Shown piece after piece: positions 4,518-21,118 of a stretch of 51,248 nucleotides of DNA. The notes beneath the pieces are model-generated. The model saw nothing but the letters and a program-made list of their open reading frames with translations. It was not told the origin of the DNA and searched no databases. Made by a program: the position numbers and the translations under genes. How positions within the stretch are numbered: the stretch's first letter is position 1; each line of letters begins with the position of its first letter. Source of the DNA: a virus; the IMG/VR virus record IMGVR_UViG_3300048999_000032, positions 1-51,248 of that record; one strand, written 5' to 3'.

Positions 4518-4672
4518 CCGGTCTCCTCCAGTCCGCAGCGGGCACACACCAACTCGACACTCACGACTTCTTCGCCGTCGATCAGGTCACCCGCGGGGAA
4601 CATGCCCAGCGGTCGTTCGGTCTCGGCCAGCCGGCCACAGCCGTCAGCGCAGTACACGGGATCTAGGGTCAC
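4514..4672 (-). CDS. Zinc-ribbon mini-protein, 52 aa
   Basis: The GTG at 4672 overlaps the upstream stop as GTGA and has GGGAGG five bases before it. The product starts MTLDPVYCADGCGRLAETER and ends ELVCARCGLEETG, giving CX3C and CX2C zinc ligands. The final codons GAGGAGACCGGATGA double as the ribosome site and start of the next gene, a junction repeated elsewhere in this operon. Confidence 0.72.
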   Translation of the reverse strand: MTLDPVYCADGCGRLAETERPLGMFPAGDLIDGEEVVSVELVCARCGLEETG

Positions 4673-18923: not shown

Positions 18924-19340
18924 CTAGGCGCCCTTCGCGAGCGCGTTGATTGCAGCTGCGAATTCCTTGAGGTGGCTGTACTTCCGTTTGAGCGCGGCAA
19001 TGTCGCGCTCCATGGCCTGCAGCACCAGCGCCCGCGTGAACTCGTCAGCGACGGCATCCACGGTGGGCATGTAGGTGGGCTGAGGGTCGGTGCCGCGGGA
19101 CACCGAGACGAACTCGCGAATGTGCCGCGGTCGCTTCGGGTTGCGGTTGTCCGTGATCTTCACGGACCGGATGAGCCGGCGGGCCTGTTCGCGGCGGTGG
19201 ACTTCGCCTGCGATGGCGTCGTTCCATTCGAACCGGTCATGCAGCGGGTGGTCTTCAGGGCGGGCCAGGTCTACGACCAGCGCAGGCGTTAGTTCCCCGC
19301 GCTGGTCGTAGATGGCCTGAAGGCTGTCACGCAGGCTCAT
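18924..19340 (-). CDS. Conserved phage protein of unknown function, 138 aa
   Basis: MSLRDSLQAIYDQRGELTPA, LVVDLARPEDHPLHDRFEWN and VLQAMERDIAALKRKYSHLK match a family I recognise only as conserved and unannotated in actinophages. AGGTG precedes ATG 19340, which overlaps the end of the pentanucleotide-array frame as ATGA. The role may be linked to the neighbouring array or to recombination. Confidence 0.75.
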   Translation of the reverse strand: MSLRDSLQAIYDQRGELTPALVVDLARPEDHPLHDRFEWNDAIAGEVHRREQARRLIRSVKITDNRNPKRPRHIREFVSVSRGTDPQPTYMPTVDAVADEFTRALVLQAMERDIAALKRKYSHLKEFAAAINALAKGA

Positions 19341-19954
19341 GCCACACCTGCCACGAGATGCCGCGCCCAACCGAGCGATGCCGGGCCCAACCCTGCAGTG
19401 CCCTGCCCAACCTGCCGTGCCGAGCCATACCTGGCCCCGACAAGCCCTAACCGGCCCCACCCAGCCACATCGAGCCGTACCATGCCTGCCAGACCGTGCC
19501 GGGACTTACCCCGACATGCCCCGCCTGCCCCGACATACCGCACCGAGCCCCGCCAAGCCTTGACCTGCCTGCCAAGCCGCGCCATACCTGGCGCTGCCAT
19601 GCTCTGCCGATCCCCGCCTGCCGTGCCCTGACTAGCCGGACCGCGCACTGACGAACCGAGCCACACCCCGCCTGCCACGCCGTAACGGACCATGACGAAC
19701 CGAGCCAAGCCAGGCCGCGCGAAGTCGAACCATGCCTGCCTCGCCATGCCATACCGGGGCTTGACATGCCCAGCCCAGCCAAACCAAGCCTGCCTTGCCG
19801 GAACATGCCGTGACCCGACACGCCTATCCCTGCCTGCCGCGCCGCACCTGACCCCACCGCACCCAACCAAGCCCTGCCGATCCGAGCCTGCCGAGCCCCA
19901 CCACGCCTTGCCGAGACAAGCCGTGCCACGACCTTCCACGCCTGCCGTGCTCAC
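19337..19954 (-). CDS. Possible 205-aa Gly/Ala/Arg/Trp-rich protein encoded by the pentanucleotide array
   Basis: A single frame without stops runs across the whole array. Its GTG start overlaps the upstream TGA (GTGA) and its TGA overlaps the downstream ATG (ATGA), the same junctions as real genes here. The product is low complexity with recurring RQAW, GMARLG and YGMARQAW-like pieces and no recognisable fold. Other frames over the array are also partly open because NNGGC pentamers rarely spell stops, so coding is uncertain. Confidence 0.4.
   Translation of the reverse strand: MSTAGVEGRGTACLGKAWWGSAGSDRQGLVGCGGVRCGAAGRDRRVGSRHVPARQAWFGWAGHVKPRYGMARQAWFDFARPGLARFVMVRYGVAGGVWLGSSVRGPASQGTAGGDRQSMAAPGMARLGRQVKAWRGSVRYVGAGGACRGKSRHGLAGMVRLDVAGWGRLGLVGARYGSARQVGQGTAGLGPASLGWARHLVAGVA
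19341..19950. repeat. Degenerate pentanucleotide (NNGGC/GCCNN) array, about 600 bp
   Basis: The minus strand reads as roughly 120 consecutive five-base units of the form NNGGC or close variants, e.g. TCGGCAAGGCGTGGT and CTCGGCACGGCAGGT. The plus strand is the complementary GCCNN series. Units are conserved only at GG (often GGC); the other positions vary. The transcribed strand product would be GG-rich with three-base spacers. It lies between two conserved genes in the early operon. No other part of the window resembles it. Confidence 0.93.
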
Positions 19955-20574
19955 GACATCACCGTCACGTCGCGGGACGGGTCGATCTTGAAGGTGCCGA
20001 AGTCACCCTTCTTCTCCGGTCGCCACTCCCCGATGCCGCAGCCGAGACCGCCGGCGTCGATCAGGGACAGCACCGACTCACGGGTCAGCGACGACTTCAC
20101 GAACGTGACCTCGAGCTCGGTCGACCACTCCGGGAACTCCGGGCGGTAGCGCAGGTCCGAGCTCCCCATGCCGATGCGGACCACGTCCTCCCGCATGCGC
20201 GGCTCTCCGGTCAGTACGGCGAGCGGCTGCGGGTCAGCGTCGGACAGGACGCCCTTGAAGAACAGGAACTGCCGCAGGTCGGTCATGCGGACGTCCTTGC
20301 CGTAGAACCGGGCCGCCCCGACCGTCGCCGACTTGAAAGCGATCATCGGGAAGCCGTAGCCGTCCTTCGTCCGGTAGAACGCGGCGAGGTACTCGGCTTC
20401 CGGATCACGCGCCACCTTCGGAGACTTCCGGCCCTGCTGCGCGTCGAGCATCTGCTTCTTCGCCTTCTCGCTGAAGCGGTGAACGATGAGCGGCGCAGTG
20501 CCGACGATCGGGACGATGAGCGTCTCGGCGTCGATGCGGGAGATGTTGACCTGTGCGGATGCCGCGGTGACCAT
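19951..20574 (-). CDS. Conserved phage protein of the PLIVHRFSEKAKKQM type
   Basis: 207 residues. IVPIVGTAPLIVHRFSEKAK, GFPMIAFKSATVGAARFYG, VRIGMGSSDLRYRPEFPEW and AGGLGCGIGEWRPEKKGDFG are hallmarks of a family I recognise from many phages without an assigned function. The glycine-rich end and paired beta segments hint at a nucleic-acid-binding alpha/beta fold (inference). AGGAG precedes ATG 20574. It is the first large gene of the early operon, directly upstream of the array. Confidence 0.78.
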   Translation of the reverse strand: MVTAASAQVNISRIDAETLIVPIVGTAPLIVHRFSEKAKKQMLDAQQGRKSPKVARDPEAEYLAAFYRTKDGYGFPMIAFKSATVGAARFYGKDVRMTDLRQFLFFKGVLSDADPQPLAVLTGEPRMREDVVRIGMGSSDLRYRPEFPEWSTELEVTFVKSSLTRESVLSLIDAGGLGCGIGEWRPEKKGDFGTFKIDPSRDVTVMS

Positions 20575-20717: not shown

Positions 20718-20912
20718 CTAGGCGACCGTCCGTGTGTTCCGGTCGATGTACTGCTGCAGGTCTGCTTCCGCGACGCGGGACTTCCCGCGGACCTCGACAA
20801 CCGGCAGGTCGCCGTCAGAGATCAGGCGGTACACGGTGTTGCGGCTGACCTTCAGCCGGTCGGCCACCTGCGGGATGGTGAGCACCTCGGCGGGAATTCG
20901 CTCGTCGCTCAC
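20718..20912 (-). CDS. Excisionase-like HTH protein, 64 aa
   Basis: MSDERIPAEVLTIPQVADRL, KVSRNTVYRLISDGDLPVVE and RGKSRVAEADLQQYI form a winged HTH_17/MerR-like domain used by excisionases and Cox-type regulators. The GTG at 20912 overlaps the membrane micro-gene by GTGA. It is the second gene of the leftward operon, opposite the integrase module; likely excisionase or early regulator. Confidence 0.75.
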   Translation of the reverse strand: MSDERIPAEVLTIPQVADRLKVSRNTVYRLISDGDLPVVEVRGKSRVAEADLQQYIDRNTRTVA

Positions 20913-21010
20913 GCGATCACCAACCAAATCAGTAGGAGCGCGACGACGGCCACGCGGACCATAAGGAGCGGGCAGCCTTTCGGCTTCGGAGACTCCTTCA
21001 TTAACCACAT
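20909..21010 (-). CDS. Single-pass membrane mini-protein, 33 aa
   Basis: MWLMKESPKPKGCPLLMVRV is followed by AVVALLLIWLVIA, a hydrophobic C-terminal helix. GGAGG lies five bases before the ATG. It is the first gene of the leftward early operon. Function unknown. Confidence 0.72.
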   Translation of the reverse strand: MWLMKESPKPKGCPLLMVRVAVVALLLIWLVIA

Positions 21011-21049
21011 CTGAGCCTCCGTGCATCACGCTGAATCTGAGTGTGTCTT

Positions 21050-21118
21050 GCTGTGTCAGCGACGGTAGCACCGGGGATTAAGAGTCCGCAAGGGTTTGGG
21101 TGGGTCAAGCTGTGTCAG
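21050..21118. promoter_or_regulatory. Leftward early promoter region with two 10-bp operator-like sites
   Basis: GCTGTGTCAG occurs at 21050-21059 and 21109-21118 in the gap before the leftward operon; the second copy extends to a 16-bp match with 23962-23977 in attP. On the minus strand TTGACC overlaps the 21109 site's right edge and TCTTAAT follows about 19 bases later, a possible weak promoter. Repressor or Xis binding is inferred. Confidence 0.5.

Follow-up and report, generated by a model that had tools for sequence, protein, structure and literature searches.

What purpose is served by an array of degenerate five-base units that lies between two conserved genes of a virus genome and is spanned by an open reading frame? 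Such an array was found on the minus strand of the window, by which we mean the whole stretch of 51,248 nucleotides analysed here (IMG/VR record IMGVR_UViG_3300048999_000032). The locus is composed as follows:

18924–19340, minus strand: probable vipr-accessory gene (vap), 138 aa, phrog_15946; accompanies vipr in nearly all loci
19337–19954, minus strand: open frame of 205 codons with 4-bp overlaps at the stop of vipr and at the start of vap; proposed to conduct ribosomes to vap
19346–19945, minus strand: putative guide (vrRNA) array of 110 YNNGG units in 11 blocks, with the 4-nt CAGG (context GGCAGGC) between and flanking the blocks
19951–20574, minus strand: vipr, encoding a RAMP-like RNA-binding protein of 207 aa (PDB 36pp_D, phrog_4652, AlphaFold2/Foldseek)
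20718–21071, minus strand: excisionase-type HTH gene, immediately upstream of vipr

The periodicity of the array was evaluated against controls of matched composition. The base identity at lag 5 was 0.481, in clear excess of the 0.315 ± 0.021 of the Markov-1 controls, and the autocorrelation of G at the same lag was 0.435 versus 0.000 ± 0.041. A unit model with a free register gave the array a score of 263.5 versus 17.4 for the runner-up place in the window, and the scores of 20 randomised windows did not exceed 20.5. Thus, the pentamer array at 19945–19346 is real and is the sole strong array of the window; a tandem-repeat scan of the window found no CRISPR-type array. In the YNNGG unit, the fourth position is G in 93% of cases, the fifth is G in 83% and the first is C or T in 91%.

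A sequence-only reading of this DNA had described about 120 consecutive minus-strand units with GG at a fixed phase. The array and its phase were confirmed, but not its continuity. The free-register model revealed punctuation that had escaped that reading: 12 four-base units, always CAGG, cut the array (ten internal and one at each end), each of them shifting the register by one base. The resulting blocks, from 1 to 11, contain 10, 10, 8, 10, 12, 10, 9, 8, 7, 14 and 12 units. The sharp framing by two conserved genes was also confirmed, the edges of the array adjoining the stop of vipr at 19951 and the start of vap at 19340. ARAGORN reported a tRNA-Asp inside the array (19709–19792), which had no Rfam support and was judged to be a chance fold of GG-rich repeats; the call is most probably false, and annotation pipelines may repeat it.

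In order to determine the nature of the flanking genes, sequence and structure comparisons were used. The start codon of vipr is located at 20574, with AAGGAG six bases upstream of it. The encoded protein has one sequence relative in the PDB, namely 36pp_D ('SUSP1 Vipr protein', E 5.8e-9), and the BLASTP comparison with the Vipr of Escherichia phage SUSP1 (KT454805) gave an E value of 3e-14. Modeling using AlphaFold2 led to a model with a pLDDT of 89, for which the best PDB matches found by Foldseek were all CRISPR RAMPs of the Csm3/Cas7 type (probability 1.0). By its sequence relatives and its predicted fold, the gene at 19951–20574 is identified as Vipr, a RAMP-fold homologue. The earlier suggestion that the array serves for the binding of an adjacent conserved protein is plausible, since the neighbour is an RNA-binding RAMP homologue. 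The gene at 18924–19340 is probably the accessory gene vap; the model of its product (pLDDT 94.5) showed a weak likeness to winged-helix DNA-binding domains (Foldseek, FOXO/MarR, E about 0.1), and BLASTP found no sequence similarity to vap1 of SUSP1. The excisionase-type HTH gene lies upstream on the same strand, which places the locus in the early region.

The sequence-only reading knew of no described function for such an element, which is outdated. A 2026 preprint (PMC13142463) describes VIPR as an RNA-guided DNA-silencing system of phages that represses genes of competing phages. According to this preprint, Vipr is an ancestral RAMP, the guides (vrRNAs) consist of 9–16 YNNGG units, and in SUSP1 the NN bases are read against DNA with one base skipped per unit. 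The production of guide RNA, RNP formation, the 1-nt skip rule and repression are there reported for SUSP1, and the system was characterised mainly in SUSP1 and Pseudomonas. Our detector recovered the vrRNAs of SUSP1 itself as arrays of 11–16 units.

The window locus shares with the type II VIPR of SUSP1 (PDB 36pp) a RAMP-family Vipr, YNNGG units with hypervariable NN, guides of about 7–16 units, an accessory gene next to vipr and decoding with one skipped base per unit. The features of VIPR found in the window are a minimal single-RRM RAMP Vipr, a GGY/NN array next to vipr and a minimal phage-borne locus with one vap; the 1-nt skip rule was found by computation only. The blocks contain 7–14 units, with seven of the 11 having at least ten and the rest 7–9, so that the low end is slightly under the 9–16 units of VIPR. 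However, the vrRNAs of SUSP1 are separate tracts of 11–16 units, each preceded by a sequence of its own and followed by an invariant 3' tail (structured, according to PMC13142463), whereas in the window eleven guides lie head to tail with only the 7-nt GGCAGGC between them, an ORF runs through the array and the accessory protein is unrelated. No structured 3' tail of the SUSP1 type is present in the window array, the blocks of which end in GGCAGGC. Because the tracts of SUSP1 are separate and carry an invariant tail, the window does not hold a type II system.

For other VIPR types, 'staggered arrays with overlapping vrRNAs' are mentioned in the preprint (fig. S18), possibly the same contiguous-guide architecture as that of the window; the main text presents the other two array architectures, and not the staggered one, as confirmed by sRNA sequencing. 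The Class 1 CRISPR systems, with their Cas7/Csm3 filaments, also have the RAMP fold, a multi-guide array and short invariant repeats between variable parts. The window differs from them in its 5-nt units, non-contiguous code, 7-nt repeat and phage-borne position with no cas operon beside it. The locus is most likely a VIPR with an architecture that is unlike that of the characterised type II and may or may not be already described.

Relatives of vipr were collected from Gordonia and Mycobacterium phages, one cyanophage, 73 IMG/VR loci and six bacterial genomes. Of the 85 loci scanned, about 79 have an array with the grammar of the window next to vipr and on its strand. As the sequence-only reading had proposed to check, period and phase are conserved there while the sequence is not. 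The placement varies: the array may precede vipr, follow vap or occupy the gap between the two genes. Among the 844 breaks of 71 distinct arrays (counted over lengths of 1–4 nt, the range permitted by the detector), 774 were 4 nt long, including 516 CAGG and 50 CAGT, and GGCAGGC opens and closes most arrays. The arrays are laid out as repeats and spacers, the repeat being 7 nt long. Slippage can give rise to simple-sequence arrays, but a one-off slippage product without function is refuted by a grammar that is conserved on the vipr strand in about 79 loci of diverse phages, and we give this origin practically no credence. No YNNGG array was detected beside the vipr homologues of loci L059, L068, L069 and L072–L074, where either a contig end is nearby or the unit consensus is different. 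Giant arrays of 3.5–3.9 kb were found in L018 (4678–8592) and L061 (4660–8131); many guides are common to both and keep their order, while others were gained, lost or altered at single bases, which suggests a CRISPR-like turnover of guides.

The guides were then decoded by a rule in which each unit yields its NN followed by one free (skipped) base. Three blocks of the window are referred to in particular:

19891–19940, minus strand: guide block 1, 10 units, antisense decode [DE]PT[FL][DE][KN]VTLT
19415–19484, minus strand: guide block 10, 14 units, target not found
19351–19410, minus strand: guide block 11, 12 units, antisense decode T[IM]A[HQ][DE][IM]G[HQ]LVL[HQ], the ImmA/IrrE metallopeptidase motif

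Guide 1 has exact 20-base gapped matches in the major capsid genes of L092 and L093, antisense and wobble-aligned (D-P-T-F-D-N-V-T-L-T), and the major capsid gene is probably its target. Guides of L013 and L019 decode to AGKVYxFAP, apparently the next capsid segment. This pattern had no match in the exact target scan, and a tblastn search with composite capsid peptides gave weak matches or none, with no actinophage gene found.

In the case of guide 11, the decoded sequence, readable as T[IM]AHE[IM]GHLVLH, provided the sole Pfam match among the decoded guides (Peptidase_M78, E 0.24) and the sole PHROG match (transcriptional regulator, E 0.11). A ten-codon part of its pattern (20 bases) matches two phage HTH-ImmA genes exactly, and the tblastn search with the decoded motif found, in Gordonia, Clostridioides and other phages, proteins annotated as metalloproteases or as HTH-type. 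Guide 11 agrees with the HTH-ImmA gene of the Gordonia phage BBQValindra in 22 of 24 bases (24 of 26 with the neighbouring joint) and with the Mycobacterium prophage prophiGD44-1 in 23 of 26. On BBQValindra, the 3-nt step gives these 22 of 24 bases, whereas steps of 2, 4 and 5 give at most 14 of 24. Judging from these sequence matches, guide 11 is most likely directed at an ImmA/IrrE-type protease of the lysogeny switch.

For guide 10, no target was found by the exact scan with its core pattern, by a tblastn search with its peptide, or at three mismatches in 198 genomes from the genus of a Microbacterium locus. The exact target scan gave no match for guide 6 or for the full-length pattern of guide 11, and a local search of the window guides against all loci revealed no significant target. 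Against the reading of the blocks as guides, it counts that a target family was assigned for only two of the 11, that a perfect full-length target was found for guide 1 only, and that the phages matched by guide 1 are probably not actinophages.

The guides were also analyzed collectively, using 652 distinct guides from about 80 loci. The HExGH motif of ImmA is decoded by six guides from six different arrays, all antisense, with 0.105 expected; the maximum in 200 randomisations was two. Two of the six lie in Microbacterium genomes. The NN positions of the six guides are 82% identical (26% at random), while their Y/GG positions agree at 73%, versus 71% at random, which argues for convergence on a target and not for copying. 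A guide of L019 (array at 4671) matches the vipr gene of L017 in 19 of 20 bases, wobble-aligned; it decodes to the conserved Vipr segment VLSLLDAGGM and also meets nine other vipr genes. Apparently, one VIPR system is here aimed at others, in line with the guides of VIPR against VIPR reported in PMC13142463. In addition, the guide dinucleotides fit codon positions 1–2 better than 2–3 or 3–1. Taken together, the decoding indicates computationally that the blocks behave as separate guides and that the one-base skip rule holds in the clade.

The same data bear on two other readings of the array. GG recurs every five bases, and the RNA folds somewhat better than its dinucleotide shuffles (z −2.9), as would suit a structural element, either G-quadruplexes, as the sequence-only reading had considered, or a folded RNA or DNA scaffold. 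Such an element could do without the conserved pyrimidine, the CAGG commas and the hypervariability of NN, and does not predict a shared protein motif decoded from NN; the G-quadruplex proposal in particular leaves the pyrimidine, the 4-nt punctuation and the decoded convergence unexplained. We consider a structural role very improbable.

The guides could instead pair with the target mRNA, as in antisense silencing, and not with DNA. Every assigned target in the clade is antisense to its gene, ten of the 11 window guides are antisense-leaning in composition, and the folds nearest to Vipr belong to Csm3 subunits of type III, which target RNA. However, the orientation is mixed over all high-GC guides, and the VIPR of SUSP1 binds dsDNA and represses from either strand, as stated in PMC13142463. 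Pairing with mRNA therefore appears rather unlikely, although worth keeping in mind.

The frame of 205 codons with 4-bp overlaps at both neighbours exists as the sequence-only reading had described it. At least one frame is open by chance in 13% of simulated arrays of the same unit composition; by itself, the ORF therefore gives little evidence for a protein. Arrays located before vipr or after vap were open in 7 of 15 cases (6.1 expected) and in 10 of 41 (10.5 expected), respectively. In the window and in L013, L014, L017 and L019, the layout is tight: a start codon coincides with the stop of vipr or is only a few bases away from it, and the frame ends with ATGA on the vap start. It is open in all five loci, with 205 (window), 197 (L013), 85 (L014), 138 (L017) and 143 (L019) codons, in arrays that are largely unrelated in sequence. 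Multiplying the single-frame chances of these loci gives a joint chance of about 9e-6, an optimistic figure because the five loci were picked after the layout had been seen and the phages are related.

The simplest reading is that ribosomes may cross the array to start vap, i.e., translational coupling. In favour of a gene for a low-complexity protein of 205 residues with a five-residue repeat are the open frame in the five tight loci and two ORFs of this kind in Gordonia phages that carry the annotation 'hypothetical protein'. A functional protein is less likely, however, because the five products have nothing but their composition in common. The repeat frame changes at every block owing to the 4-nt commas, arrays outside the vipr–vap gap are no more open than composition predicts, and the variable bases decode as guides. 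The sequence-only reading was thus partly right that the frame matters, while a repeat protein as its main product is very improbable. In public annotations, parts of such arrays appear as 'hypothetical proteins', namely gp40 of UmaThurman and gp43 of Pipp (Gordonia phages) and gp48 of Donkeykong (Mycobacterium phage). A regular repeat with a 15-nt period, which resembles coding for a pentapeptide-repeat protein and contrasts with the 5-nt guide arrays, was found in L014 (4411–4795, minus strand).

All these characteristics allow us to regard the array, with high confidence, as the guide array of a phage VIPR system (a vipr–array–vap operon) of a temperate actinobacteriophage, the guides of which would silence genes of rival phages. 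In the proposed mechanism, subunits of Vipr (a single-RRM relative of the CRISPR RAMPs Cas7/Csm3) would cover the transcript, each of them occupying one 5-nt unit, holding its GGY and leaving its NN exposed. Each block between two GGCAGGC commas would be one guide that reads about 21–42 bp of dsDNA, two bases in three, with the skipped base at the codon wobble position, and the Vipr–guide complex would block transcription of genes in rival phages. The production of guide RNA, RNP formation, the skip rule and repression are assumed for the window by analogy with SUSP1. We propose that the 4-nt comma could end one guide and start the next by breaking the 5-nt register of the filament, and that the transit of ribosomes through the array could couple the translation of vap to that of vipr.

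The evidence is evenly balanced on a more specific description, namely a tail-less, comma-separated VIPR with a many-guide transcript, 4-nt register breaks, an RNA that in the tight layout is both a guide precursor and a translatable ribosome path coupling vipr and vap, and guides that repeatedly and independently converge on the ImmA/IrrE HExxH codons of rival temperate actinophages. Should the readings of the comma and of the translated array be true, they would show how RAMP filaments are bounded on an RNA with many guides in the absence of CRISPR-like processing sites. The decoded targets fit phage–phage competition at the lysogeny switch. The CAGG punctuation offers a simple way to cut arrays into guides, and the set of 652 guides from about 80 loci includes actinophages with named laboratory hosts (Gordonia terrae and Mycobacterium smegmatis).

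Reciprocal matches between guides and tape-measure genes (15 of 18 bases each, antisense, wobble-aligned) were found for the Gordonia phages ODay (L006) and Ecliptus (L007), and they were left uncounted, since chance alone would give each guide about 0.5 matches of this quality. The tail operon of both phages contains the VIPR locus, next to the tape-measure gene.
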